From contig DGUB01000036.1 in assembly GCA_002393815.1 (NCBI GenBank), positions 1 to 26,145 of the forward strand: a stretch of 26,145 bases of DNA. The letters are read 5' to 3'. Shown piece after piece: positions 3,192 through 25,853 of the stretch. Source of the DNA: Ruminococcus sp. UBA4321. GTDB lineage: Bacteria > Bacillota > Clostridia > Oscillospirales > Ruminococcaceae. The notes beneath the pieces were generated by a model. The model was not told where the DNA came from, searched no databases, and saw only the letters and a list, made by a program, of their open reading frames with translations. A program made the position numbers and the translations under genes. The stretch's first letter is position 1. Every line of letters starts with the position of its first letter.

Positions 3192-3220
3192 TTGTGTTCT
3201 TCCGGATTCTGTGCTAAAAT
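3192..3220 (+). promoter_or_regulatory. Promoter of the CHAP-ricin-dockerin gene
   Basis: TTGTGT (3192-3197), a 17-base spacer and TAAAAT (3215-3220) with TGC directly before the -10 box. The gene start at 3259 follows after a strong AAGGAGG ribosome site. Confidence 0.6.
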
Positions 3221-3258
3221 ACTGGATATACATTCCGGATAAATTTAAGGAGGATTTT

Positions 3259-4431
3259 ATGAAATACGGAAAAAAGATAGTTTCAGTATGTTTCGGACTC
3301 GCGCTGTTCATGACAGGCATATTCTGTCCGCAGATGCAGGTATCTGCTACACAGTCGAGAAAAGATAATTTTTCAACAGATTATACGATTACAGGAATCG
3401 GCGCACAGGATATTCTGAATGTGGCAGTTGCACAGACCGGAAAGACCGGAAAACAGCTCGGCTATACAGAAGAATGGTGTGCAGACTTCGTCAGTGACTG
3501 TGCAGACTTAGCCGGACAAAGTGCAGCTGTACCGCGTTACGGACAGGTGACAGGTCTGAAAAGCAGAATCATTTCGGCAGGCGGTAAAGTAATAACTTCT
3601 TCTCCGCAGCCGGGCGATATTGTATTCTATAAAGGTCATGTCGAAATTGTATATTCTGCTTCCGGGACTTCGCTGTCTTCCCTGAAATCCGTCGGCGGCA
3701 ATACCAGCAGTGCTTCTACGCTGTATACCAGAAAAGTGTCTCTGCCCCATTATTGCGGAACGGTGCTTTCTGTTGTCAGACCGGCATATCATAATCAGCC
3801 TGTCGAATGGTATAAAAAACAGGAGCCTGCTGATTTTGGCGAGGTCTTTTACGGAAAAATAAGAAATCATATTTCCGGCTGGTATCTGACCAATGATAAC
3901 GGCAATGCTGCCGGCATGGGAGAACAGGCTGACAGCAGTCAGTTCTGGAAGTTTGAAAGACAGGATGACGGCAGCTATCAGATTACCAGTCTTCTGGACG
4001 GCAGCTGCCTGGGAGTTGAGGATTCTGCACAAGACGGAAGTGACTCCAATGTGCTGACATGGGAAGACAATGCCGGCGAAAATCAGAGATTTTCTTTCTA
4101 TAAAATCGGGAATGTGTTCTATTTCAGGCCGCAGTGTTCTGAATCTGCTCTGGAAATGGATTTGAACAACCGCCCCGGCAATGTTTCTGTTGCCGAATTT
4201 GCAGAAAACCGCGAACAGCAGAAATTTGAAATCGAAGAACTCGCCCCCGAAGAACTCCCGGCTGAAAATCAGCTCAGTGTGGAGGATATTATCGCTCTGA
4301 AAAAATATCTCCAGAAAGAAGAAATCTTTACAGAAGAACAGTTCACAGCGGCAGACTGGAATCAGGACGGCGAGGTCAATATCTATGACCTGATTCTGCT
4401 GAAAAAACAGCTTCTGGAAGAAAATTCCTGA
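3259..4431 (+). CDS. Secreted CHAP-domain protein with ricin-type module and dockerin-like C-terminus
   Basis: A 390-residue exported protein. Residues 1-30 form a signal peptide (basic MKYGKK, hydrophobic core, probable cleavage after VSA). Residues about 45-175 form a CHAP-like amidase/endopeptidase domain with candidate nucleophile C74 (EEWCADFVSDC), PGDIVFY at 118-124 and candidate H127 (KGHVEIV). CHAP domains typically cut peptidoglycan. Residues about 193-327 look like a ricin B / CBM13-type carbohydrate module with QFW and QRF repeats. Residues 338-388 are dockerin-like: a second calcium-loop repeat DWNQDGEVNIYDLILLKK is intact, whereas the first repeat has only its helix (VEDIIALKKYL). 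The start at 3259 is chosen for the AAGGAGG just upstream; an in-frame ATG at 3211 lacks one. Cell-wall remodelling or inter-bacterial lysis is inference. Confidence 0.85.
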   Translation: MKYGKKIVSVCFGLALFMTGIFCPQMQVSATQSRKDNFSTDYTITGIGAQDILNVAVAQTGKTGKQLGYTEEWCADFVSDCADLAGQSAAVPRYGQVTGLKSRIISAGGKVITSSPQPGDIVFYKGHVEIVYSASGTSLSSLKSVGGNTSSASTLYTRKVSLPHYCGTVLSVVRPAYHNQPVEWYKKQEPADFGEVFYGKIRNHISGWYLTNDNGNAAGMGEQADSSQFWKFERQDDGSYQITSLLDGSCLGVEDSAQDGSDSNVLTWEDNAGENQRFSFYKIGNVFYFRPQCSESALEMDLNNRPGNVSVAEFAENREQQKFEIEELAPEELPAENQLSVEDIIALKKYLQKEEIFTEEQFTAADWNQDGEVNIYDLILLKKQLLEENS

Positions 4432-4496: not shown

Positions 4497-4501
4497 AATT
4501 G

Positions 4502-4594
4502 CATGGCAGGGGAGTCTGTGATTCAGGCTGAGAGGGAACAGTAACAGTTCCGACCCTTTACCTGATGCGGATCATGCCGCCGTAGGAAGTCATA
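4502..4594 (+). ncRNA. TPP riboswitch (THI element)
   Basis: Senses thiamin pyrophosphate and lowers expression of the downstream salvage genes. P1 can form between 4503-4507 (ATGGC) and 4589-4593 (GTCAT). The pyrimidine-binding arm shows P3, then CTGAGAGG at 4528-4535, and the P3a hairpin GGAAC/GTTCC, then GACCC. The pyrophosphate-binding arm shows CCTGATGCGGATCATGCCGC (4561-4580) followed by CGTAGGAA. A terminator follows directly, so control is probably by premature termination. Confidence 0.95.
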
Positions 4595-4610
4595 AATGAT
4601 GATGATGACG

Positions 4611-4645
4611 GGGACATTCTGAATCCAGAATGTCCCTTTTCTTTT
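4611..4645 (+). terminator. Terminator of the TPP riboswitch expression platform
   Basis: A perfect 11-bp stem, GGGACATTCTG (4611-4621) with CAGAATGTCCC (4626-4636), AATC loop, followed by TTTTCTTTT. It lies 16 bases after the aptamer and 205 bases before thiW, as expected for ligand-induced termination. Confidence 0.9.
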
Positions 4646-4698
4646 GAAAGGAGGAGTGAACAGCCAGACGGGCAGATGAGGAGCGTCTTTTGCCTGAG

Positions 4699-4806
4699 AT
4701 TACAGCGAGGGAAGCCGTGTTCCGGCGTGAGAGGAAACCAGTAAGTTTCGACCGATTGTCTTTTTACAGGATAATTGTATCTATTCTGAGAGGACGACGC
4801 TGTAAT
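4699..4806 (+). ncRNA. Second structured leader element resembling a diverged TPP aptamer
   Basis: A perfect 9-bp closing stem ATTACAGCG (4699-4707) / CGCTGTAAT (4798-4806) encloses a segment whose first half closely follows the upstream TPP aptamer. The order is GGGAAGCCG, loop, CGGC, TGAGAGG, hairpin GAAAC/GTTTC, then CGACC. The conserved CTGAGA reads GTGAGA. The second half keeps GGATAAT (4769-4775) but lacks CCTGAT and CGTAGGGA, so the pyrophosphate-binding arm is degenerate or remodelled. It lies after the terminator and 43 bases before the thiW start. It may be a tandem variant aptamer, a decayed duplicate, or a structure with another ligand. Confidence 0.55.
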
Positions 4807-4820
4807 TCTGCCGTTCTCTC
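4788..4820 (+). promoter_or_regulatory. Hairpin upstream of thiW, possible expression platform of the second element
   Basis: GAGAGGACG (4788-4796) pairs with CGTTCTCTC (4812-4820) over 9 bp including one wobble. The loop contains the 3' strand of the closing stem of the preceding element, so the two structures should compete. No T-tract follows. The ribosome site AAAGGAGAA is 15 bases further on, suggesting translational rather than transcriptional control. Confidence 0.45.
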
Positions 4821-4849
4821 GAAACAAATCTTTCAAAGGAGAATGTATC

Positions 4850-5356
4850 ATGAATCAGAACAAAACTAAAAAATTAGCCCTTGCAGGTGTACTCTGTGCC
4901 GTTGCCGTTGTCGGAAGCTACATCTCAATTCCCGTATTCGGAAGCAAATGCGCTCCCGTACAGCATATGGTGAATATCCTGTGTGCTGTGCTTCTGGGTC
5001 CCTGGTATGGCGTGGGCGTGGCATTCGCAGCAAGTCTTATCCGGAATCTGCTGGCACTGGGAACTCCTCTGGCGTTTACCAGTATGATTGGCGCACTGCT
5101 CAGCGGACTTGTCTACCATAAAACAAAACTCACATGGCTTGTGTATCTGGCTGAAATTATTGGTTCCGGCATTCTCGGCGGTCTGTGTGCTTACCCGATT
5201 GCGATTTTTATTATGGGCAAAGATGCAAGCTCTATCGCTTTTTATGCCTATGTCGTTCCGTTCCTGATTTCTGTTGTAGGCGGTGCAATTCTGTCCGTGA
5301 TTCTGGTAGAATCGCTCCGGAAAGCAAAAGTCTTTAAATTACAGAAAGAATCCTGA
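4850..5356 (+). CDS. thiW: ThiW, S-component of an ECF-type thiazole transporter
   Basis: A 168-residue integral membrane protein with about five hydrophobic segments, matching ThiW, the substrate-binding subunit predicted to import hydroxyethylthiazole. It works with the shared ECF module (EcfA, EcfA', EcfT), which is not encoded in this window. Visible features are the N-terminal KKLALAGVLCAVAVVGS helix, the short PVFGSKCAPVQH segment, the NILCAVLLGPWYG helix and RNLLALGTPLAFTSM, a stretch typical of this family. It is the first gene of the operon, behind the TPP riboswitch and a second leader element. The start has a clear AAAGGAGAA site. The ligand is inferred from the family and from adjacency to thiM. 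Confidence 0.9.
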   Translation: MNQNKTKKLALAGVLCAVAVVGSYISIPVFGSKCAPVQHMVNILCAVLLGPWYGVGVAFAASLIRNLLALGTPLAFTSMIGALLSGLVYHKTKLTWLVYLAEIIGSGILGGLCAYPIAIFIMGKDASSIAFYAYVVPFLISVVGGAILSVILVESLRKAKVFKLQKES

Positions 5357-5360
5357 AATC

Positions 5361-6182
5361 ATGTTCGGAGAATATTTATCTCATGTCAGAGAAAAACAGC
5401 CGCATATTCACTGTATCACGAATTATGTGACAGCGAATGACTGCGCGAATCTTCTGCTTGCTTCGGGCAGTTCGCCGATTATGGCGGACTGTCCGGAAGA
5501 ATCTGCCGAAATTACGGCATTATGTGATGGCTTACTGCTCAATACCGGAACTTTGAATCCGGATAAGCTTTCCGCTATGCGGAAATCCGGCAGAACCGCA
5601 AACGAACTGCATCATCCTGTTGTGCTTGACCCGGTCGGAGCAGGGGCTTCCCGTTTCAGAACAGAATCTGTTCTGTCTCTGGTGAAAGAACTTCGGATTG
5701 ATGTGATTCGCGGAAATCTGTCCGAAATCAAAGCGTTATTCTGTCATGCAGAAAGTTCCGGCGGCGTGGATGCCGTATCTTCTGACAGAATCACAGAAGA
5801 AAATCTTCCGGAAATGCTCACTTTAATCCGGCAGATTGCCGCTGTGCAGAATACTGTCATTGCCGTGACCGGACAGATTGATATTATTGCCGATAAGAAT
5901 CAGGCATACTGCATCCGGAACGGCTGTTCCATGATGAAATCCGTAACAGGTTCAGGCTGTCAGCTTTCCGCGCTGACGGCGGCATTCATCACGGCGAATC
6001 CGGAACGAATTCTTGAATCAGCGGCGGCGGCGGTCTGCATGATGGGCGTATGCGGTGAAACCGCACTCGAACATCTGGAATCTTATGAAGGCAATGCAAG
6101 CTTCCGGAACAGAATCATTGATGCCGTATCTCATCTGGATGCCGAAATGCTCGATAAAAAAGCAAAGTATCAGATTTTTTGA
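5361..6182 (+). CDS. thiM: Hydroxyethylthiazole kinase
   Basis: Phosphorylates 4-methyl-5-(2-hydroxyethyl)thiazole with ATP to give thiazole phosphate for ThiE. The 273-residue length is normal. It begins with the conserved HCITNYVTANDCANLLLASG region (17-36) and SPIMAD. It carries VLDPVGAGASRFR near residue 88 and the active-site loop VTGSGCQLSA near residue 195, with the conserved cysteine. It starts only 4 bases after the thiW stop codon, with a weak AGAAAGAA site lying inside the end of thiW, so translation is probably coupled. It makes a logical pair with the thiazole importer. Confidence 0.96.
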   Translation: MFGEYLSHVREKQPHIHCITNYVTANDCANLLLASGSSPIMADCPEESAEITALCDGLLLNTGTLNPDKLSAMRKSGRTANELHHPVVLDPVGAGASRFRTESVLSLVKELRIDVIRGNLSEIKALFCHAESSGGVDAVSSDRITEENLPEMLTLIRQIAAVQNTVIAVTGQIDIIADKNQAYCIRNGCSMMKSVTGSGCQLSALTAAFITANPERILESAAAAVCMMGVCGETALEHLESYEGNASFRNRIIDAVSHLDAEMLDKKAKYQIF

Positions 6183-6207
6183 TACTCCGGAAAGGAATTA
6201 GATAGTT

Positions 6208-6858
6208 ATGAAAATCAATCCCGAAATGATGCGGCTTTATGCCGTTACAGACAGGCACTGGCTCAACGGAAAGACGCTTGCACAGCAGGTCGAAGAAGCA
6301 CTTAAAGGCGGAGTTACCTGTGTACAGCTCCGTGAAAAAAATCTGGATTTTGATTCTTTTCTGAAAGAAGCAGTCGAACTTAAAAAAATTTGCAGTGCGT
6401 ATCATGTGCCGCTGCTGATTAACGATAATATCGAAATCGCCCTGAAATCCGGGGCGGACGGCGTTCATGTCGGTCAGGGCGATATGCCTGTCGAAGAAGT
6501 CAGAAAAATTCTCGGAGAAGATAAAATTATCGGCGTGACAGCGAAAACGGTCGAACAGGCTCTTGAAGCGCAGAAACACGGCGCAGATTATCTCGGCTCC
6601 GGGGCGATGTTCGCAAGTTCGACCAAAACAGATGCCATCCGGATTGATTATCAGACGTTCCGGGAAATCTGTCAGGCAGTAGAAATTCCGGTAGTTGCAA
6701 TCGGCGGTATCACGAAAGAAAATATTTCTCAGATTGCCGGGCTTGGCATGGACGGAATCGCCGTTATCACAGCGATTTTCTCGGCGGAAAACATTCAGCA
6801 GGCATGTCAGGAACTCCGGGCATTATCGGAACAGATTGTTTCTGATATGAAAAAATAA
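6208..6858 (+). CDS. thiE: Thiamin-phosphate synthase
   Basis: Joins HMP pyrophosphate and thiazole phosphate to form thiamin monophosphate. The 216-residue TIM-barrel protein shows the family blocks YAVTDRHWL, CVQLREKNLD (HMP-PP binding), LLINDNIEIALKSGADGVHV, GVTAKTVEQA, YLGSGAMFASSTKTDA (thiazole-phosphate site) and VAIGGITKENI. It starts 25 bases after thiM with a GGAAAGGA site. A 9-bp hairpin separates it from thiD. Confidence 0.97.
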   Translation: MKINPEMMRLYAVTDRHWLNGKTLAQQVEEALKGGVTCVQLREKNLDFDSFLKEAVELKKICSAYHVPLLINDNIEIALKSGADGVHVGQGDMPVEEVRKILGEDKIIGVTAKTVEQALEAQKHGADYLGSGAMFASSTKTDAIRIDYQTFREICQAVEIPVVAIGGITKENISQIAGLGMDGIAVITAIFSAENIQQACQELRALSEQIVSDMKK

Positions 6859-6873
6859 ATTTTCTTGATAAAC

Positions 6874-6906
6874 AACGGCAGACCGGGAACACCACTCTCT
6901 GTCGTT
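6874..6906 (+). promoter_or_regulatory. Hairpin in the thiE-thiD gap
   Basis: AACGGCAGA (6874-6882) pairs with TCTGTCGTT (6898-6906) over 9 bp with one wobble and a 15-base loop, followed by TTATAAAATT. The T-tract is too weak for an efficient terminator. It could be an attenuator, an RNA-processing site or an mRNA-stabilising stem within the operon. Confidence 0.4.
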
Positions 6907-6945
6907 TTATAAAATTAATGCATTTCAGAAGGGAGTTATTTTATC

Positions 6946-7749
6946 ATGAAAACTGCATTAACAATCGCTGGAAGCGATTCCAGCGGAGGTGCTGGCATTC
7001 AGGCAGATATCAAAACCATGACCGCAAACGGTGTGTTCGCGATGAGTGCGGTCACAGCTCTGACCGCTCAGAATACCACCGGAGTCGCTGCCATTATGGA
7101 AGCTTCACCGGAATTTCTGGCACAGCAGCTTGACTGTATCTTTACGGATATTGTTCCGGATGCGGTAAAAATCGGCATGGTTTCTTCTTCTGCCCTGATT
7201 GCAGTCATCGCGGAGAAACTCATACAGTATCAGGCAAAACATATTGTGCTTGACCCTGTTATGGTTGCGACCAGCGGTGCAAAACTCATCAGTGATGATG
7301 CCATTGCCGCTCTTACGGAAAAACTCATTCCGCTCGCCGAAGTCATTACACCGAACATTCCCGAAGCCGAAGTTCTGACCGGAATGAAAATTACTGACGT
7401 TTCCGGAATTGAACAGGCTGCAAGAAAGATTTCGGAATCTTATGGCTGTGCGGTTCTGCTGAAAGGTGGACATTCGGTCAATGATGCGAATGATTACCTT
7501 TACAGCAAGGACGGCGGCAGAGTATTCGAGGGCAGACGCATTGACAATCCGAACACGCACGGCACAGGCTGTACGCTTTCCAGTGCGATTGCTTCCAATC
7601 TGGCGAAGGGCTTTCCTCTGCCGGAAGCTATCGAACGGGCAAAAAACTATATTTCCGGCGCACTGGGTGCGATGCTCAATCTCGGAAAGGGTTCGGGACC
7701 TATGAATCATGCATTTGCAATCGAGAATCAGTTCACTGAGGAGGCGTAA
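6946..7749 (+). CDS. thiD: Hydroxymethylpyrimidine / phosphomethylpyrimidine kinase
   Basis: Catalyses two successive phosphorylations, HMP to HMP-P to HMP-PP, the pyrimidine half of thiamin. The 267-residue ribokinase-fold protein has ALTIAGSDSSGGAGIQADIK at residues 3-22, DPVMVATSGAKLI near residue 103, TPNIPEAEVLTG near residue 136, the LLKGGHS strand near residue 171 and NTHGTGCTLSSAI near residue 203 with the anion-hole GTGC. The upstream GAAGGGAG element serves as ribosome site. Its stop is 2 bases before the tenA start. Confidence 0.97.
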   Translation: MKTALTIAGSDSSGGAGIQADIKTMTANGVFAMSAVTALTAQNTTGVAAIMEASPEFLAQQLDCIFTDIVPDAVKIGMVSSSALIAVIAEKLIQYQAKHIVLDPVMVATSGAKLISDDAIAALTEKLIPLAEVITPNIPEAEVLTGMKITDVSGIEQAARKISESYGCAVLLKGGHSVNDANDYLYSKDGGRVFEGRRIDNPNTHGTGCTLSSAIASNLAKGFPLPEAIERAKNYISGALGAMLNLGKGSGPMNHAFAIENQFTEEA

Positions 7750-7751
7750 AT

Positions 7752-8423
7752 ATGAAAGTTTCAGAAAGATTATATCAGGCGGCTCTGCCTATCTGGGAAA
7801 GTTATTATCAGCATCCTTTTGTACAGGGCATTGCAGACGGAACACTCGAACATGAAAAGTTCGCATATTACATGATTCAGGACCATAAATATCTGATGCA
7901 GTATGCGAAAGTGTTTGCGCTCGGCGTTATCTGCGCCGATAAGGAAAGCGATATGAGAACATTCAGCAAGCTGATTACAGAAACCCTCGATACGGAAAAT
8001 GCTGTACATCAGAGCTATTTGGCGAAGTTCGGCATTGACAGGGAAAAAATCGAATCCACGCCGATGGCACTTAATAATGAAAGCTATACAAATTATATGA
8101 TTTCCATCGGATTCAAGGGCGGACTTGCCGAAATCGCCGCCGCTGTGCTGGCATGTTCATGGAGCTATGAACTTATCGGCGAATATATCGAGAAGAATTT
8201 CCCGGAAAGCAAGAACGACGAATTCTATGCCAACTGGGTGAATACTTACACTTCCGAAGGCTACCGTGCCTGCAATGACGAGATGATTGCCATGTGTAAC
8301 CGTTTTACGGAAAACTTTACAGAAGAACAGATTCAGGAACTGGAACGCATTGTTGTGATTTGCAGCAAATATGAATATCAGTTCTGGGATATGGCTTGGA
8401 CAAAAGGCGAAATCTACAGATAA
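7752..8423 (+). CDS. tenA: Aminopyrimidine aminohydrolase / thiaminase II
   Basis: TenA hydrolyses amino-pyrimidine breakdown products of thiamin to HMP, feeding ThiD. The 223-residue all-helical protein has the family blocks HPFVQGIADGTLEHEKFAYY, YMIQDHKYLMQYAKVFA with the conserved aspartate, LACSWSYELIGE carrying the conserved catalytic cysteine, and WVNTYTSEGY near the C-terminus. The GAGGAGG site overlaps the end of thiD. With thiW and thiM upstream, this makes the operon a salvage pathway for both halves of thiamin. It is the last gene before a strong terminator. Confidence 0.95.
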   Translation: MKVSERLYQAALPIWESYYQHPFVQGIADGTLEHEKFAYYMIQDHKYLMQYAKVFALGVICADKESDMRTFSKLITETLDTENAVHQSYLAKFGIDREKIESTPMALNNESYTNYMISIGFKGGLAEIAAAVLACSWSYELIGEYIEKNFPESKNDEFYANWVNTYTSEGYRACNDEMIAMCNRFTENFTEEQIQELERIVVICSKYEYQFWDMAWTKGEIYR

Positions 8424-17920: not shown

Positions 17921-20900
17921 ATGAAAAAAAGCAAAGTCAGTGCCGTGCTGCTTTCCGGTGCAGTATGCCTTTCCGCATGGAGCGGACTGCTTCCCGTTAC
18001 CGATTCGCCGGCGATTGAAGTCGCCGCGGCAACAAGTCCTGTTGTAGAATATCTCGACAGAGGCATCAACGCAGTCGGCACAGGTTCCGGAATGCTTGTC
18101 AGCTGGCGTTTTCTGGCATCTGACCCGGATAATGCCGTTTTCAAGCTGTATCGGGATAATACGCTGATTTATACCAGTACCGAAAAGACCAACGGTGCAA
18201 CCTGTTTTCTGGACAAGAGCGGAACTGCCAATTCTAACTATAAAGTAGAATGCTATAACGGAAGCTCCCTGATTTCCAGTGATACCTGTACGCTGAAATC
18301 TGCAAATGCTTATTATGACATTAAGCTTGACCGTCCCGGTTCCAGCTATACGCCGAATGATATGTCTGTTGGCGACGTAGACGGTGACGGCGTTTACGAA
18401 CTGTTCGTGAAATGGGATCCGAGCAACTCAAAAGACAATTCTCAGAAAGGCAAGACAGATAAAGTTTACATCGACTGCTATAAACTGGACGGCACAAAAC
18501 TCTGGAGAATTGATTTGGGTGTGAATATCCGTGCAGGTGCGCATTATACACAGTTCTTTGTTGCAGACTTTGACCTTGACGGCAAGGCAGAAATGACTTG
18601 CAAAACCGCTGACGGCACTGTGGACGGTAAAGGCAAGGTTATCGGAGATGCTTCCAAAGATTACAGAAATTCAAGCGGCTATGTGCTGTCAGGACCTGAA
18701 TATTATACACTCTTTGACGGCGCAACCGGTGCGGCTCTGGATACTGTCAATTATGAACCCGGCAGAGGCACGGTTTCTTCATGGGGTGACAGCTACGGCA
18801 ACCGCGTAGACAGATTCTGGGGAACAACAGCCTATCTTGACGGTGTGCATCCGTGCGTTGTCACCGGACGCGGCTATTATACCAGACTGACAGCAACCGC
18901 TTATACAGTCGAGAATAAGAAGCTCAAGAAACTCTGGGCATATGATTCCGGAAATTCCAATTCATCAAGCAATGCATACGGTGACGGCAATCACAATTCT
19001 ATGGCTGCCGATGTGGACGGCGACGGCAAACAGGAAGTAATTACAGGTCCTGCAATTATTGATGATAACGGAAAACTTTATTATTCTACGAAACAGGGAC
19101 ACGGCGACGCGATGCATGTCGGCGACCTCGACCCGTCTAACCCCGGTATTGAAGTCTGGATTTGCCACGAAGAAAAGCCGTCCGGCTATGGCGTAACGCT
19201 CTATGATGCCGACCAGAAGAAAATTATCTTCCACAACAACGGCGCAGGCGATACAGGCAGATGCTGCGGCGATAACGTCTGGGCTGGCAATCCCGGTGCA
19301 GAACTCTGGGGTAATAAGGAATCCGATGATTCTATGCCTGTCAAGGACACGAAAGGCAATACGCTGAACTGCCGCCGCCCGGCTATCAATTTCCTGACCT
19401 ACTGGGACGGAGATTTGGAACGCGAAATTCTCGACGGCTATACAGATTCTCCGGCGACTATCTCCAAGATGACAGGCGATGCCGGAAAGACAACTATCAC
19501 CAATCTGCTTGTAACCGACGGTTTCTACACCTGCAATACGACCAAAGGCACACCCTGTCTTTCTGCTGATATTTTCGGCGACTGGCGTGAAGAATTAATT
19601 GTCCGGAAGGCAAGCGGTGATGCTATCAGAATCTACTGCACAGATTATGATACAGATTACAGAATTCAGTGTCTGATGCATGACCCGCAGTACAGAACAC
19701 AGGTTTCCGCACAGCAGACAGCTTATAATCAGCCGCCGCATACCAGTTTCTATCTTGGTTCTGACCAGAAAATTCCGGCGCGTCCTTCCTGTACAGTGAA
19801 TGAAAACGGTGTTGTCAAGCCCGGAAAAGCAGGCGCGGCAATTGATACGGCTCACAAATACATGATTCAGAACGTGAACAGCGGTCTGTATCTGAGCGTG
19901 GATACTTCCGATAATAATGTAGTGCAGAGCGCAGCCGGCGTAACGGGCTGGAAACTCGAAGATGCCGGAAGCGGTTACTATCATCTTTACAGCGAAACAG
20001 GCGACGGAAAGACCTATCTGCTCGATTTGGATTACGGCAAAGCCGATAACGGAACGAATATTCATCTCTATACAGATACGGCTTCTGATGCACAGCTGTT
20101 CAAGTTTGTGGATAACGGAGATGGTTCTTATACTATCTGCACAAAGAATACTAAGGATGAAAGCTGTCTCGGCGTGACATCTGCTTCCAAGGAAGAAGGC
20201 GCGAATGTTGTACAGTGGTCTTGCAGCGGCAGCAATGACCAGAAATGGAAACTGGTCATCAAAGTTGACCCCATCGACGGCAATCTCATCAAGAATCTGC
20301 TTGTAAAAGATACTGCTAATTATCTGAACTGGAAATTTGATACCTGTCTCATGACCGGTGATGCCGTATATGGCGACAGAGAATTCACTTATACCAGTCT
20401 GCCGACAGAATTACAGGGTGCAGAATCTGTTCTGACTGCCTGCAATTCCAAGAATTATGATGCAGATTTAGCCACTTTCACCGCTGGCGCAGATATGACA
20501 CTTTATATCGCACTGGATGCCCGTCAGGAAGCTGTTCCTGCATGGCTGAGCAGTTATACAAAAACAAATCAGACAGCAGCCACAAGCAATGATGTGACAT
20601 TCAATCTGTACACAAAGCAGATTGCCAAGGGCGAAACAGTTACACTCGGCACAAACGGCGGTTCTTACAATCTGGTGAATTATACCGTGATGGCAAAAGC
20701 TTCCGCAATGACCGGAAACGCCTATGTCAAGAATTTACAGGTGAATGATACGGAAAATGCCGCTGACTGGTCTCTTGATGAGAATATCACAACCGGAAGC
20801 CTTCTGTACGGCGACCGCGATGTGACATTCGCACAGCTTCCGGCAGAACTCCAGAATACTGCCGCAGTCCGCACCGCCTGCGATTCTAAGAATCTGGATG

Positions 20901-21331
20901 CTTCTCTTGCAGTGTTCACTGCTGGTATGGACGAAACTGTCTACGTTCTGGAAGACAGCCGTGTCACAACAGTTCCGGCATGGCTGAACAGCTACACTAA
21001 AACCAGTCTGACAGTTGTCGGCTCGAACGATGTAACATTTAACGTATATGCTCTGGATGTTGCAAAGGGCGATACGGTTGTACTCGGCACAAACGGTCAG
21101 AGTTCCGGATGTGTTGGCTATACTGTTCTGATTAAGGCAAACGGTAAGGTTTCCGGTATCATCGGTGATGCTGATGCCAACGGAAAAGTAGAACTTGCCG
21201 ATGCTGTCATGCTTCAGAAATATCTGAAGAAAAAAGGTCATCTCACTGACTGGAAACAGGCTGATGTTTGTCAGGACGACGTAATTAATATCTTTGATTT
21301 GATTGCTCTCAAGAAATTACTCATGAAATAA
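17921..21331 (+). CDS. Secreted PL11-type rhamnogalacturonan lyase with ricin module, two repeat modules and dockerin
   Basis: A 1136-residue extracellular enzyme predicted to cleave the rhamnogalacturonan I backbone of pectin by beta-elimination. Signal peptide about 1-38. Residues about 40-640 match the family 11 lyase beta-propeller: EYLDRGINAVGTGSGMLVSW, repeated calcium-type loops (DVDGDGVYELFVKWD, DFDLDGKAEMTCKTADGT, DVDGDGKQEVITG), GDLDPSNPGIEVWICHE and FGDWREELI. Residues about 643-778 are a ricin/CBM13-type module. Residues about 787-1065 are two copies of an unassigned module. Residues about 1080-1136 are a type I-like dockerin with GDADANGKVELADAVMLQKY, while the second loop (DVCQDDVINIFDLIALKK) has lost the central N-G. 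The start follows a GGGGG-type ribosome site. A terminator follows closely. Confidence 0.92.
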   Translation: MKKSKVSAVLLSGAVCLSAWSGLLPVTDSPAIEVAAATSPVVEYLDRGINAVGTGSGMLVSWRFLASDPDNAVFKLYRDNTLIYTSTEKTNGATCFLDKSGTANSNYKVECYNGSSLISSDTCTLKSANAYYDIKLDRPGSSYTPNDMSVGDVDGDGVYELFVKWDPSNSKDNSQKGKTDKVYIDCYKLDGTKLWRIDLGVNIRAGAHYTQFFVADFDLDGKAEMTCKTADGTVDGKGKVIGDASKDYRNSSGYVLSGPEYYTLFDGATGAALDTVNYEPGRGTVSSWGDSYGNRVDRFWGTTAYLDGVHPCVVTGRGYYTRLTATAYTVENKKLKKLWAYDSGNSNSSSNAYGDGNHNSMAADVDGDGKQEVITGPAIIDDNGKLYYSTKQGHGDAMHVGDLDPSNPGIEVWICHEEKPSGYGVTLYDADQKKIIFHNNGAGDTGRCCGDNVWAGNPGAELWGNKESDDSMPVKDTKGNTLNCRRPAINFLTYWDGDLEREILDGYTDSPATISKMTGDAGKTTITNLLVTDGFYTCNTTKGTPCLSADIFGDWREELIVRKASGDAIRIYCTDYDTDYRIQCLMHDPQYRTQVSAQQTAYNQPPHTSFYLGSDQKIPARPSCTVNENGVVKPGKAGAAIDTAHKYMIQNVNSGLYLSVDTSDNNVVQSAAGVTGWKLEDAGSGYYHLYSETGDGKTYLLDLDYGKADNGTNIHLYTDTASDAQLFKFVDNGDGSYTICTKNTKDESCLGVTSASKEEGANVVQWSCSGSNDQKWKLVIKVDPIDGNLIKNLLVKDTANYLNWKFDTCLMTGDAVYGDREFTYTSLPTELQGAESVLTACNSKNYDADLATFTAGADMTLYIALDARQEAVPAWLSSYTKTNQTAATSNDVTFNLYTKQIAKGETVTLGTNGGSYNLVNYTVMAKASAMTGNAYVKNLQVNDTENAADWSLDENITTGSLLYGDRDVTFAQLPAELQNTAAVRTACDSKNLDASLAVFTAGMDETVYVLEDSRVTTVPAWLNSYTKTSLTVVGSNDVTFNVYALDVAKGDTVVLGTNGQSSGCVGYTVLIKANGKVSGIIGDADANGKVELADAVMLQKYLKKKGHLTDWKQADVCQDDVINIFDLIALKKLLMK
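20281..21150 (+). repeat. Two tandem copies of an unassigned ~140-residue module in the lyase
   Basis: Copy 1 spans roughly 20281-20700 and copy 2 roughly 20716-21150. Both follow the order: (I/Y)VKNLxVxDT, W-x-x-D/L, YGDRxxTxxxLPxELQ, a run of aspartates (KNYDADLATFTAG / KNLDASLAVFTAG), a VPAWLxSYTKT segment, SNDVTFNxYxxxxAKG, LGTNG and a final VxYTVxxKA. Such modules occur beside many secreted carbohydrate-active enzymes and are plausibly carbohydrate-binding beta-sandwiches; I cannot assign a CBM family by eye. Confidence 0.75.
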
Positions 21332-21475: not shown

Positions 21476-22195
21476 ATGATTTTTATTACCGGAGATATTC
21501 ACGGAGAATATGATATTCATAAATTTTCTGCACGGCGGTTTACTTTGCAGAAAACACTCACACGCGATGATTATATGATTATCTGCGGTGATTTCGGATT
21601 ATTATGGGACGGCTCCAAATCCGAAAAATGGTGGCTGAACTGGCTCGAAAACAAGCCCTGGACTACCCTCTGGATTGACGGCAATCACGAAAACTTTGAT
21701 ATGCTCGATGCACTGCCTGTTTCGGAATGGAACGGCATTCAGGTGCATAAAATTTCGGAACATGTCATGCACATTCTCCGCGGTCAGTGCTTTGAACTGG
21801 AAGGAAAGAAATTTTTCGCATTCGGCGGCGCGGAAAGTCATGACAAGGCATTCCGGAAATGGGGCGTTTCCATCTGGAAACAGGAAGTCCCCAGTATTGC
21901 CGAAATGAAACGCGGCAGAAAAGCCCTCGAACAGGCAGGCTGGAAAACCGATATTGTCATTACGCACTCACTGCCGCAGCATATTCAGCTGGATATGTTC
22001 GGCTGGGAAGCCTATAACCGCAATGAACTGACAGACTATTTCGACGAAATTGATTCCCGTCTGGATTTCAAATTATGGTTCAGCGGTCATTATCATCTGT
22101 CCATGCCCTGTGACAGCAAGCATTTTCTGGTCTATAACGATATCCTGAAACTGACAGACAGCGGTTTCGAGTGCGTTTATTCGCCGTATCTTTAA
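21476..22195 (+). CDS. Calcineurin-like metallophosphoesterase
   Basis: A 239-residue cytosolic dinuclear-metal phosphoesterase of unknown substrate. All motif blocks are present: GDIHGE (D7, H9), ICGDFGLLW (D39), DGNHENFD (N70, H71), VITHSLP (H164) and FSGHYH (H205, H207). The ATG at 21476 is the first in frame and begins directly with the metal-binding strand MIFITGDIHG; a GGGGG run lies 10 bases upstream and AGGAGG a little further. It has its own promoter and no obvious functional partner nearby. Confidence 0.9.
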   Translation: MIFITGDIHGEYDIHKFSARRFTLQKTLTRDDYMIICGDFGLLWDGSKSEKWWLNWLENKPWTTLWIDGNHENFDMLDALPVSEWNGIQVHKISEHVMHILRGQCFELEGKKFFAFGGAESHDKAFRKWGVSIWKQEVPSIAEMKRGRKALEQAGWKTDIVITHSLPQHIQLDMFGWEAYNRNELTDYFDEIDSRLDFKLWFSGHYHLSMPCDSKHFLVYNDILKLTDSGFECVYSPYL

Positions 22196-22221
22196 TTTTT
22201 TGAAATTTTTCAGAAAGCTGC

Positions 22222-22250
22222 TTGACAAATGAAATTTCTTATGCTATAAT
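22222..22250 (+). promoter_or_regulatory. Consensus promoter of the large structured RNA
   Basis: A perfect TTGACA (22222-22227), a 17-base spacer and a perfect TATAAT (22245-22250) with TGC directly before it. A start around 22257 would put the first hairpin (CTGAAGCTT...TTCAG) at the RNA 5' end. The strength suggests abundant transcription. Confidence 0.88.
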
Positions 22251-22256
22251 AAAAAC

Positions 22257-22900
22257 CTGAAGCTTGAAAGCTATATATTCAGTATTTTGTACAGCGTATC
22301 TGCATAACCGTGTGTTAAAATGAGAGCCGGCTGCTCTGCACGGGTGCGCCGGAACCGCTGAGTCGTCAGGCGGACGGATACGTTCGCAAGGCGGCTTTGA
22401 GATTGAAATAATGTGGCAACACGATTTTTCAGGAGACAGAGAGAAATCCTGTCAACAGAGAAGGCGCAGCGCATGAGGTGTATGCAGATGTAAGGTATTC
22501 TGAACGACTGCCCCTCGCAATAGACCGCCTCCGCGGGGAGGAAGAAGCCTGTAAGACCATGTGTGGAAACATGAGCCGCCACAGGTAGTCCGCAAGGACG
22601 ACCAGCCAAGAGGGGGTGCCGATACTGTGCGGCGAAATCCGTACAGCAGTTGAAGGAAGTACACTGCCGTAAGGTACGCTATCGGAATGCAAATCCGACA
22701 GAAATGGAATTTATTCTGAATGCTGTGGCGGTGCTGCGGGTATAAATCCCGTCCGGGTTCGGTGCTTGCACAGGGTAAGAAGCAGCGGGTCGCTCCCGTC
22801 TGTTCAGACTTATTCTCCCGGTGACCGAATACATTGAGAAGCTGTCCATGTAAGGTGAATAAAAGCCTGTGCAGATATGTTGTACTAAATGCTGAATCTT
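22257..22900 (+). ncRNA. Large (~640 nt) highly structured RNA of unrecognised class
   Basis: No convincing protein is encoded on either strand. Positions 22277-22306 can pair with 22868-22897 as a terminal helix of 30 positions with 29 pairs (four wobbles, one T-T mismatch), far beyond chance. Inside lie many local helices: 22355-22373; GTG-GCAA-CAC at 22413-22422; CAGGA/TCCTG at 22430-22451; CCTGT/ACAGG (22548-22552 with 22581-22585) enclosing CATGT/ACATG; GTCC-GCAA-GGAC at 22588-22599; and CTGTGCGG/CCGTACAG at 22625-22646. GNRA tetraloops recur. No T-tract terminator follows; the next gene's ribosome site is 13 bases after the helix. Size, own promoter and paired ends recall ornate large RNAs such as OLE, ROOL or GOLLD, but I cannot assign a class. 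Confidence 0.8.
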
Positions 22901-22922
22901 GTCAGTGATTGGAGAACTGAAT

Positions 22923-24086
22923 ATGAAAAAAATAACAGCAGTCATTCTGTCTGCACTGCTCGCGTTCAGCGGATGTGCGGGAATGGCTTTTTCTGTTTCG
23001 GCGGAAGAATATGCCGTTGGTGATATCAATGAAGACGGTAAAACAGACGCGGCGGATGCGGCGGAGATTCTCATGCTCTGTGCGAAGGCAGGTGCAGAAG
23101 GATTCGGCAGCCTTTCCGATGCACAGCGCAGCAGAGCAGACTATAATCAGGACGGAACAGTAGATGCTTCCGATGCAGGAGAAATTCTGGTATTTGCAGC
23201 CGAATCCGGTGCAGGCGGAAATCAGACGGAAGAATCTCTCAATGAACTGCTTCTGAACGTCATCGGTCAGATACCGGACGGCGGCGGATATTATACCGGA
23301 CGTGCCGCAAAGGCTGAACTGACGCAGAATGCATGGGAAGGCATGGACAAGGCAGTCGTGATAGAAGAAAACAGCGTAACAATTGATATGAATGAAGCCC
23401 GTCCGTCTTTCTGTTCTTCGGCAACATATATGGCTTTGCTGAAAACTCTGTCTGTCTGGGATACGGAACAGGTCATTTCTGTTGAAGCCTGGAAAAATCT
23501 CAAACCCTATACGGTACAGGGAAGAGCATGGGCAATTCAGGATGACGGTGTCGGCTGCTGGGGGCGTGCAAATGCCAATGGACCTGGATTTGCTGTACTC
23601 GCCGCACAGTTCGGCGCGGGAGAAAATACCTATATTGCACCGAAAAATTCTTATGCTTCCGAAGAGGATTATTTTGCCGCATGGAAGCAGGTGAAGCCCG
23701 GAGATTTTGTAAAGCTGTTCTGGAACAAATATATCGGCGATAACGGCAGCAATTCAGAATCCGGTCATATGGTTATCTTTCTTGGATTCACAGAATCTAC
23801 AGATGCTGACGGAAACCGAACCGGTACTGTTCGGTACTGGTCATCCAACGGCTCCGGTTATCAGCCGGACAGAGGCTACGGAATCAGCGAAACAAAGATT
23901 TCCTCTGTTTACCGCGCTGTTTCTACCCGGATTACACATCCGGAATCCTTCGCTGATGCAGAAAAAATCATGCCGGATAACAAAGATGCATGGCTGTATT
24001 CTCTCAACGGCAGTCATCTTGCCACAGAAAAAGAACTGCTTCAGGCAATTTCCGGGGTTTCGTCTGCGGCTGTCTCTGAAAAATAA
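22923..24086 (+). CDS. Secreted protein with N-terminal dockerin and putative Cys/His hydrolase domain
   Basis: A 387-residue exported protein. Residues 1-27 are a signal peptide (MKKITAVILSALLAFSG) with probable cleavage after VSA; a cysteine at 18 gives only a weak lipobox. Residues 31-95 hold a dockerin with two good calcium-loop repeats, GDINEDGKTDAADAAEIL and DYNQDGTVDASDAGEIL. Residues about 105-340 are a domain reminiscent of NlpC/P60 or CHAP folds: a helix-starting cysteine C164 (RPSFCSSATYMALL), VKPGDFVKLFW (257-267), H282 (SGHMVIFLG) and VRYWSSNG. Catalysis is inference. The ATG at 22923 follows GGAG. It directly follows the structured RNA, with no other promoter visible, and ends at a terminator. 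Confidence 0.82.
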   Translation: MKKITAVILSALLAFSGCAGMAFSVSAEEYAVGDINEDGKTDAADAAEILMLCAKAGAEGFGSLSDAQRSRADYNQDGTVDASDAGEILVFAAESGAGGNQTEESLNELLLNVIGQIPDGGGYYTGRAAKAELTQNAWEGMDKAVVIEENSVTIDMNEARPSFCSSATYMALLKTLSVWDTEQVISVEAWKNLKPYTVQGRAWAIQDDGVGCWGRANANGPGFAVLAAQFGAGENTYIAPKNSYASEEDYFAAWKQVKPGDFVKLFWNKYIGDNGSNSESGHMVIFLGFTESTDADGNRTGTVRYWSSNGSGYQPDRGYGISETKISSVYRAVSTRITHPESFADAEKIMPDNKDAWLYSLNGSHLATEKELLQAISGVSSAAVSEK

Positions 24087-24110
24087 TATGCTGAATTGAA
24101 AAGATTTGCT

Positions 24111-24150
24111 TTCTGCATCTGAAAAATTTTTCGGATGCAGAAATTTTTTT
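24111..24150 (+). terminator. Terminator of the N-terminal dockerin gene
   Basis: TTCTGCATC (24111-24119) pairs perfectly with GATGCAGAA (24134-24142); the intervening bases can extend the stem. ATTTTTTT follows. Confidence 0.92.
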
Positions 24151-24244: not shown

Positions 24245-24766
24245 ATGCAGGACAGCTCCGAACAAAGAAAAATTTTTGATGCGTATTATCATTATGTTTA
24301 TGCTGTTGTCTCCCGGATTCTCTCCGGAATCGGTACAGCAGAAGATATGGAGGAATGTGTTGCAGATGTCTTTGCAGAATATTTTCTCCGCTGTGAAAAT
24401 GTCAATCCGGAGAAGGTGAAATCCTATCTCGGCACGACTGCCCGGAATCAGGCAATTAATCGCTATCATTCCCTGAAACGGCATTTTGCGTTTTCGCTCG
24501 ATGATGATTCTGTGCCGGAACAGGCTTCTGATGAAGATATCTGTCAGACTGCCGAACAGGAAGAAACAGCCCATCTCTTACTGGAACAGATTCAGGCTCT
24601 GGGCGAACCGGACGCTTCTATTCTGATACAGAAATTTTATTATCACTGCAATTCCGGACAGATTGCCCGGATGTTGCATATGAATCCTGCTGCTGTCAGA
24701 ACCAGATGCAGCAGAGCTTTGAAACGGCTCAGAAAATCACTCACAGATGCCGGAATCACACTCTGA
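24245..24766 (+). CDS. ECF-type RNA polymerase sigma factor
   Basis: A 173-residue sigma-70 family protein with only regions 2 and 4. Region 2 spans about 10-80 (FDAYYHYVYAVVSRIL, AEDMEECVADVFAEYF, VKSYLGTTARNQAINRYHSL). Region 4 spans about 112-170 with a helix-turn-helix (CNSGQIARMLHMNPAAVRTR, then SRALKRLRKSL). Start preceded by AAAGGAGAAA. The next gene begins 15 bases later and has the layout of an anti-sigma factor, so the pair probably responds to an extracellular signal. Targets are unknown; neighbouring dockerin genes are candidates. Confidence 0.9.
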   Translation: MQDSSEQRKIFDAYYHYVYAVVSRILSGIGTAEDMEECVADVFAEYFLRCENVNPEKVKSYLGTTARNQAINRYHSLKRHFAFSLDDDSVPEQASDEDICQTAEQEETAHLLLEQIQALGEPDASILIQKFYYHCNSGQIARMLHMNPAAVRTRCSRALKRLRKSLTDAGITL

Positions 24767-24781
24767 AAGGAGGATTTACAC

Positions 24782-25795
24782 ATGAATCACAGAAAGATAA
24801 AAAATATCCTGAAACATGTCAGCTTTGAAGATGCCGAAAAAATCAGCAGAACATGGGCTGACCCCCATAAGGAAAAAGTATGGGAACGCATTCACCAGAA
24901 AATGGAATCCAAGGAGGAATTTCCTATGAAAGAACAAATTACTGTTTCACAAAATAAAATTATCAGCTGGAAAGGATATCTCAGCTTTGCGGCAGGAATT
25001 GCGCTATTCTGCGGCATTGCGGGTTATGGTGTGGCTTCTCTCCGGCAGTCCGGAAGATATGCCCCGGAACCCGAACCGCAGGCTTCTGTAGGAATGGCTG
25101 TCGAAACTGAAACGGATGCCACTGTCACAGAATCCGGAAGTACACAGACAGAACCTGTTATGATAATCCCTGAAACCGCTACAGCAATGACGGAAACTAC
25201 AGCTGACGTTCTGAAAAAAACAACAGATTCCGTCACGAAAACAACGACTTCTTCTACAGAAACAGCTTCTTCCACAACAGAAACGACTACAACAACAGTT
25301 GTTATCATGGAAAATCAGCTGCCTGAAACAGAAGAAACCCTTCCGGAGACTGTCCCCGAACTTCCGGAAACCATGCCGGAACTATCAGATAATGTCATCA
25401 TCGAAGACCCTACAGAAATGCCCGAAATTGACGCGCCTGATGAAACAGATGTATTCGCCGGCGAATATCTCGAAGAATATGCAGGCCGCTGTCAGATTAC
25501 AATCACAAAAAATGATACCGGCTATGATGTGCATATTCGTTGGGCAGGTTCGGCATCTGACCACGCTGAATGGGATTTCAGCGGAGAATTCGACGGAAAA
25601 GGTGTTCTGTATTACAGTGACTGTATCAAGAAAACGACTGTCTATGCTCCTGACAAAAGCACTGAAACAATCAACTATACAGACGGCACCGGCTATCTGC
25701 GGGTTTCTGAAGAAGGCACGAAAACCGGACTCATCTGGGTGGACGATATAGAACATGCCGCAGATGATTACTTCTTTATAGAAAAAAATGATTAA
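24782..25795 (+). CDS. Probable membrane anti-sigma factor
   Basis: A 337-residue single-pass membrane protein. Residues 1-60 are a charged cytosolic region (KHVSFEDAEKIS, KEKVWERIHQKM) suited to bind the sigma factor. Residues about 64-87 are the only membrane segment (GYLSFAAGIALFCGIAGYG). Residues about 95-223 are a low-complexity Thr/Ser/Glu/Pro linker. Residues about 225-337 form a small outer domain rich in beta strands (YDVHIRWAGSASDHAEWDF, GVLYYSDCIKKT, GYLRVSEEG) of no family I recognise. No zinc-binding HxxxCxxC motif is seen, so it is not a standard ZAS anti-sigma. Assignment rests on operon position and topology. Start has AAAGGAGG upstream. Confidence 0.75.
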   Translation: MNHRKIKNILKHVSFEDAEKISRTWADPHKEKVWERIHQKMESKEEFPMKEQITVSQNKIISWKGYLSFAAGIALFCGIAGYGVASLRQSGRYAPEPEPQASVGMAVETETDATVTESGSTQTEPVMIIPETATAMTETTADVLKKTTDSVTKTTTSSTETASSTTETTTTTVVIMENQLPETEETLPETVPELPETMPELSDNVIIEDPTEMPEIDAPDETDVFAGEYLEEYAGRCQITITKNDTGYDVHIRWAGSASDHAEWDFSGEFDGKGVLYYSDCIKKTTVYAPDKSTETINYTDGTGYLRVSEEGTKTGLIWVDDIEHAADDYFFIEKND

Positions 25796-25802
25796 AAAAA
25801 TC

Positions 25803-25831
25803 TTGTCAGCCCGGCTTACAGGGCTTGACAA
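25803..25831. promoter_or_regulatory. Inverted repeat covering the metK -35 box
   Basis: TTGTCAGCCC (25803-25812) pairs with GGGCTTGACAA (25821-25831) over 10 bp with one bulged base. The 3' arm contains the metK -35 TTGACA. On the plus strand no T-tract follows. On the minus strand the stem is followed by GATTTTTTTAATC, the layout of a terminator for antisense transcription. It may otherwise be an operator or an inefficient terminator. Confidence 0.5.
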
Positions 25832-25853
25832 ACAGCTTGAATTATAGTATAAT
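25825..25853 (+). promoter_or_regulatory. metK promoter
   Basis: A perfect TTGACA (25825-25830), a 17-base spacer and a perfect TATAAT (25848-25853). It lies 33 bases upstream of the SAM riboswitch. Confidence 0.9.

Follow-up and report, generated by a model that had tools for sequence, protein, structure and literature searches.

ROOL RNA is described as a product of phage and prophage genomes, frequently located close to tRNA islands, and as having no known function (PMC12286853). According to the same account it forms an octameric cage whose contacts include the kissing of L8 with J6/8 (B4) and of L18 with itself (B6) and whose interior holds a disordered linker, and a pseudoknot of the linker-flank kind was proposed for it. 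A second ROOL cage structure, by Ling et al., is summarised in a commentary (PMC12515178). GOLLD and OLE are likewise large ornate RNAs that form homo-oligomers (PMC12286853). In addition, a very abundant and stable lncRNA of 520 nt was described from Ligilactobacillus salivarius (PMC5643018) and is treated as a ROOL by PMC12286853.

Here we describe a ROOL gene in a 26,145-nt stretch of DNA from Ruminococcus sp. UBA4321 (the window). It resembles the L. salivarius lncRNA, which is described as a stand-alone gene for a stable RNA, and the available text of PMC5643018 makes no mention of phage. The L. salivarius gene differs in lying on a megaplasmid, in the 520-nt length of its product and in being followed by a gene that is reported as a separate unit, for which the authors also weigh a shared promoter (PMC5643018). 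The class of our RNA is already known; what is new is its fixed chromosomal place beside metK in related genomes. A literature search of incomplete coverage, which is no proof of novelty, found no earlier report of ROOL at this Ruminococcus metK locus. We put at roughly 85% the reading that this is a resident, inherited and cage-forming ROOL gene upstream of a SAM riboswitch and metK.

Results

A full-length ROOL gene with its own promoter

An earlier note on this DNA had described a large ornate RNA with its own promoter and a size and organisation like those of ROOL. The Rfam search that it proposed bore this out end to end, with a strong match to ROOL, one of the classes that the note had named: RF03087 matches positions 22283-22888 over the whole model (1-574 of 574) with 214.8 bits (E 1.4e-47), more than twice the Rfam gathering cut-off of 99.1 bits. 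With lax filters no Rfam family other than ROOL was found at E<=1 in 22150-23050, and group II intron, HEARO, OLE, GOLLD and raiA were rejected as candidates on this result. GOLLD and OLE also gave no match at gathering score in the window. It is virtually certain, then, that the RNA at 22277-22897 is a ROOL. The gene most likely spans from about 22257, the predicted start, to 22897, and the RNA would be about 620 nt long. Its fold reaches -242.3 kcal/mol (z = -6.0 against 20 dinucleotide shuffles). On the plus strand the ORF list holds no frame of at least 60 aa inside 22277-22897, in keeping with the note's view that no plausible ORF is present; three such frames (70, 87 and 112 aa) lie there on the minus strand, where a fourth, of 131 aa (22679-23074), overlaps the end.

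The perfect TTGACA-N17-TATAAT promoter claimed for this RNA is indeed there, just 5' of the start at 22257 given in the note, and all eight ROOL copies of the genus have the same promoter architecture. Similarly, the ends of the RNA pair over 29 of 30 positions as had been reported, with G-U pairs counted, which is far above what 2000 mononucleotide shuffles gave (mean 11.4, maximum 21). The note had held that a lack of compensatory change in this terminal helix, P1, would remove the RNA interpretation; in fact, 3 of the 27 counted P1 pairs have changed on both sides among the eight genus copies. The GNRA loops that it listed were also recovered, as GTG-GCAA-CAC at 22413-22422 and GTCC-GCAA-GGAC at 22588-22599.

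Table 1. Features of the ROOL-metK region, in coordinates of the window
Feature	Position	Strand	Basis
Metallophosphoesterase gene, upstream of ROOL	21476..22195	+	PF00149
Sigma-70 type promoter TTGACA-N17-TATAAT, extended -10 (TG before -10)	22222..22250	+	12/12 consensus
ROOL RNA gene including whole terminal helix P1	22277..22897	+	RF03087 match 22283-22888
5' arm of terminal helix P1	22277..22306	+	pairs 29/30 with 22868-22897
L8 loop (UGUGGAA), partner of J6/8 in the published inter-chain kissing pair B4	22562..22568	+	putative placement
GCAA-capped hairpin, insert relative to Rfam consensus (after model position 279)	22588..22599	+	in alignment of 8/8 genus copies
J6/8 strand (ACGACCAGCCAAG), other side of B4	22598..22610	+	putative placement; 3 Watson-Crick pairs in window
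Hypervariable linker (disordered part of published cage)	22678..22713	+	nearly unconserved in 8 genus copies; a fixed block on either side
Linker flank UUCUGAA, complementary to 22803-22808 (UUCAGA)	22714..22720	+	pairing predicted from sequence
Hairpin GGG-UCGCU-CCC, taken as L18 (self-kissing loop B6)	22787..22797	+	putative L18
3' arm of terminal helix P1	22868..22897	+	pairs 29/30 with 22277-22306
Dockerin (PF00404) gene next after ROOL, with signal peptide (by eye); C-terminal part unassigned	22923..24086	+	Pfam
Intrinsic terminator-like site after dockerin gene	24110..24143	+	terminator scan
ECF sigma factor gene	24245..24766	+	PF08281, PF04542; TIGR02937 above cut-off
337-aa protein with one probable membrane segment (by eye); position alone hints at an anti-sigma factor	24782..25795	+	no family above cut-off
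Promoter of SAM riboswitch-metK unit	25825..25853	+	12/12 consensus
SAM riboswitch RF00162	25886..25986	+	80.2 bits
metK start, cut by contig end	26090..26143	+	18 residues, 100% identity to G028 protein

Interior structure and candidate cage contacts

To follow changes in paired positions, the Rfam structure was projected onto the eight genus copies and extended by the outer P1 pairs, which gave 161 pairs. Both sides had changed in 13 of these, a number that none of 500 shuffles equalled, and controls with a slid structure gave 0-3. The structure that RNAalifold itself proposes has 24 of 187 pairs changed on both sides. The number of further pair types was below the shuffle mean, with 494 of 500 shuffles at least as high. 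In projected helices 10, 11, 20, 21 and 24 only 0-56% of cells form pairs, which points to a probable misalignment by the model; RNAalifold re-pairs most of these regions. In the window, 23 of 150 projected Rfam pairs are non-standard.

The window RNA shares with RF03087 a full-length match from P1 to the 3' end, an L18-type loop and a variable linker, and differs from it by the extra GCAA hairpin before J6/8. RNAalifold pairs two positions of this hairpin, one of which is compensated in one sequence. The UCGCU loop taken as L18 is identical in all eight genus copies and is also present in the Rfam consensus. In one relative, G018, the ROOL (L032:747-877) carries an insert of 131 nt between P8 and J6/8 with a short direct repeat at its bounds; the insert matched no separate Rfam family, and no further copy was found among the fetched metK-upstream loci.

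L8, J6/8 and L18 were placed on the window from the Rfam alignment and the text of PMC12286853. Thus placed, UGG at 22564-22566 in L8 can pair with CCA at 22602-22604 in J6/8. In the 19 of 22 ROOLs that were compared, L8 and J6/8 share a Watson-Crick run of 4.26 on average, against 3.59 with partners exchanged (maximum 4.11; 0/2000 as high), a contrast that is inflated by kinship among the ROOLs and was obtained with segments delimited by hand; the other three (L010, L026 and L095) were left out because the anchor or the P8 loop could not be delimited. Copies from the genus have 3-6 Watson-Crick pairs here, and those of the window, G028 and G018 have 3, below the exchanged-partner mean of 3.59. 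The UGG/CCA core varies with its neighbours throughout the family, for example as UGGUA/UACCA, UGGC/GCCA and UGGA/UCCA. As far as sequence comparison can tell, the L8-J6/8 kissing pair thus appears supported across the family and weak in the window itself.

The octamer of ROOL env-120 from cow rumen (PMC12286853) was compared by its published description, for B4, B6 and the linker only. The two RNAs are similar in size (659 nt and about 620 nt), L18 and the linker can be placed on ours, and an L8-J6/8 contact is possible; they differ in that the putative B4 of the window has only 3 Watson-Crick pairs.

A fixed chromosomal place beside metK

ROOL is present as a single copy in 8 of 38 genomes of the genus, among them the window's own (G000 in this set), the eight carriers being drafts that are 72-96% complete. 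It was found in 9 of 150 genomes drawn from relatives, in 3 of 396 drawn from the family (G000 and G018, of this genus, account for two) and in 4 of 394 drawn from the order (G000 again being one). In all eight carriers it lies upstream of the SAM riboswitch and metK; metK is complete on the fetched DNA in six and is cut by the contig end in G018 and the window. The metK protein of G028 is an S-adenosylmethionine synthetase by Pfam.

On its other side, ROOL adjoins the metallophosphoesterase gene in five of the eight carriers. In G034, G028 and G008 the gene block is turned round, so that a beta-lactamase-fold/GNAT protein adjoins ROOL instead, and G034 and G008 carry the phosphoesterase gene on the same contig, some 10 kb off and pointing the other way. 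ROOL and its promoter stayed with metK. Gene order on contigs G034:C83 and G008:C39 suggests an inversion of about 10 kb that has one of its breakpoints immediately 5' of the ROOL promoter.

In 23 genomes that lack ROOL, a blastn search upstream of metK (E<=1) for remnants of it returned only four chance-level pieces of 16-26 bases, with merely 234, 142 and 13 bases available in G003, G012 and G013. The DNA upstream in sister genomes does not align and so reveals no clean empty site.

A metK tree was built from 30 of the 38 genomes, 14 of its 30 rows being flagged for uneven base make-up; left out were G000 (18 residues), G025, G017 and G036 (no metK match) and G009, G005, G011 and G029 (no locus listed). 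The seven carriers with a usable metK group together with weak support (71/69) and need one label change, which none of 500 label shuffles matched. The ROOL and metK trees agree on the groups G034+G028 and G018+G020+G026 and disagree inside the latter, where metK joins G020 with G018 (100/99) and ROOL joins G020 with G026 (84/87). ROOL is very probably an inherited chromosomal gene here, and its single entry into the group is likely rather than proven. These related gut bacteria, several of them from the rumen, appear to have kept ROOL as an ordinary chromosomal gene beside metK.

Several other features of this DNA deserve mention. Close relatives of the ECF sigma factor and its putative membrane partner (24245-25795) were seen in G037 only, among the fetched genus loci. 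Positions 17921-21331 encode a rhamnogalacturonan lyase (RGL11) of 1136 aa that bears a dockerin and ricin-type lectin domains (Pfam); no fetched relative has a full-length match to this protein, G026 and G018 covering that place. The protein encoded at 3211-4431 combines a dockerin with ricin-type lectin repeats and matches CHAP below threshold, and at 4498-8423 a TPP riboswitch is followed by genes for ThiW, hydroxyethylthiazole kinase, thiamine phosphate synthase, phosphomethylpyrimidine kinase and TENA.

The 3' end and the transcription unit

What follows ROOL differs between carriers. In the window and in G037, a dockerin gene begins 25 nt and 28 nt after P1, respectively, and neither a promoter nor a terminator was found between P1 and the dockerin ATG (22923 in the window). 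Full-length relatives of this dockerin protein occur in 2 of 38 genus genomes, these same two, in both right after ROOL. Its C-terminal part was suspected by eye to be a cysteine peptidase, a suggestion for which Pfam and NCBIfam returned nothing. In the six carriers without the dockerin gene no intrinsic terminator was found between ROOL and the riboswitch, and the first one stands at about +233 to +297 after ROOL, just past the riboswitch aptamer. Elsewhere, four of seven scanned ROOLs without tRNA genes (L012, L015, L017 and L020) have a terminator within about 110 nt, and L010 has a weak one further on; L022, whose contig ends 37 bases after ROOL, was left out of these scans. Since no terminator of its own was found, the 3' end of this ROOL probably comes from processing at P1 or from a later terminator. 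That it is cut from a longer precursor is a tentative reading, to which we give somewhat less than an even chance.

These observations also bear on the alternative that best survives, namely that the element is a cis-acting leader. It would form the beginning of the dockerin mRNA in the window and G037, and of the SAM riboswitch-metK mRNA in the other six, and would tune their transcription or stability. That no terminator was found between ROOL and the dockerin ATG at 22923, and no promoter between P1 and that ATG, speaks for such a leader, as does the fact that in the six other genomes the first terminator is, by its position, the riboswitch's own. However, a separate metK promoter stands between ROOL and the riboswitch in 6/6 carriers without the dockerin gene, and the window has one at 25825; moreover, ROOL is conserved while the genes after it differ between species. 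A weak 9/12 promoter-like site within ROOL (22383-22412) also tells against a leader. The scans behind the missing terminators were not exhaustive, one script overlooking long-loop terminators and the other the terminator of L026, which only one of them found. A terminator-like hairpin followed by TTTTT, in the first dockerin codons of both the window and G037 (22940-22988), could end the transcript, and we do not claim it as a terminator: 17 of 300 synonymous recodings fold as stably and 39 of 300 reach -19 kcal/mol. Overall, we consider the leader reading unlikely.

A related reading, which we regard as a long shot, is that a phage-type cage RNA has turned host gene and heads longer transcripts as their 5' portion. 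The SAM riboswitch terminator (six of eight carriers) or read-in to the cellulosome-type dockerin gene (the window and G037) would then determine where the RNA ends and perhaps how much of it is made. If true, this would tie an RNA cage to the supply of methyl donors or the degradation of fibre.

A conserved RNA outside a phage setting

The resident-gene reading gains further weight from rates of change. Over 21 species pairs ROOL differs by 3.4-15.6% and fourfold metK sites by 22.4-53.6%; the ratio of the two is 2.6-6.6 and is at least 3 in 16 of the 21. Change slower than at silent sites, together with the compensatory changes, indicates that the RNA itself is under selection. Synteny and rates show that ROOL has been passed on under purifying selection.

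The same data weaken the idea that the gene is a persisting remnant of a phage or another mobile element, an idea that arises naturally from the published descriptions of ROOL (PMC12286853). Outside the genus we collected 14 distinct ROOLs (10 from a pattern scan, one from a viral contig and three from genome searches), a sample rather than a census and with flanks of differing length, and tRNA genes were present in the fetched DNA of six of them. The remaining eight had none, and therefore tRNA-less ROOLs are not confined to this genus. In the window, none of the 24 proteins scanned with Pfam belongs to a phage-like family: they fall into metabolic, cell-surface, dockerin-bearing and housekeeping families, including thiamine synthesis, uracil phosphoribosyltransferase, TsaE and formate-tetrahydrofolate ligase, with one unassigned. 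Nor was a phage-like protein found by Pfam among four scanned proteins of G028, metK included, and ARAGORN found no tRNA gene in the window or in the loci of seven relatives. The earlier note's remark that phage context is missing thus stands. Compared with the typical, though not defining, phage or prophage ROOL near tRNA islands, the window ROOL has a fixed chromosomal place and no tRNA or phage neighbours. A persisting remnant is at odds with the absence of phage-like families and tRNAs, with a locus that is the same in 8/8 carriers and with selection on the RNA itself. A blastn search of 50,697 phage records and 72,556 plasmid records gave no match, a weak test because blastn aligns only about 60 nt of more distant ROOLs with the window. 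We judge a remnant very improbable. A mobile element with inverted terminal repeats, which the P1 arms resemble, was rejected because the locus is the same in 8/8 carriers and the arms covary as a helix.

Two of the outside ROOLs, from Romboutsia sedimentorum (L017) and an uncultured member of the Peptostreptococcaceae (L015), have several neighbouring genes in common, and may represent a second lineage of chromosomally inherited ROOL. Another, from Faecalimicrobium dakarense (L010:3135-3563), is only 429 nt long and scores 241 bits with both model ends matched; it looks internally deleted, because the AATAGAC middle-domain anchor was not found.

Finally, there is a negligible chance that the RNA is a new large class merely resembling ROOL, the possibility that the earlier note had raised: the window copy (215 bits, within 199-225 bits for the genus) does score below the 14 outside ROOLs (241-404 bits), but the suggestion is contradicted by a match of 214.8 against 99.1 bits that is co-linear and covers the RNA end to end, the L18 loop and the linker-flank block are kept, and no other Rfam family appears at E<=1.

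Discussion

We propose that transcription from a strong housekeeping-type promoter yields an RNA of about 620 nt, expression being suggested by the promoter and the gene. The long P1 helix closes this RNA, and its interior takes up the ROOL secondary structure, as the model match and the compensatory changes show. Eight copies could then lock together by kissing loops, L8-J6/8 and L18 among them, into a hollow RNA cage. By analogy with the published octamer, we hold such an octameric cage to be quite probable for the window RNA; its odds are reduced by the L8-J6/8 pairing of the window itself, which does not exceed chance. One group of a Ruminococcus-like genus has acquired or retained the gene upstream of the SAM riboswitch and metK. 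The role that we favour for the cage is that of a stable compartment or scaffold, made of RNA, that works for the host.

It is reasonably likely that this ROOL serves its host rather than a phage. Indeed, its position at one chromosomal site in eight related genomes, together with 2.6-6.6 times fewer differences than at fourfold metK sites, argues that ROOL can serve the bacterium itself. ROOL is usually discussed as phage-encoded. The resident copy beside metK is an informative setting because it is inherited and free of phage genes, and it therefore offers a non-phage background in which to seek a deletion phenotype.
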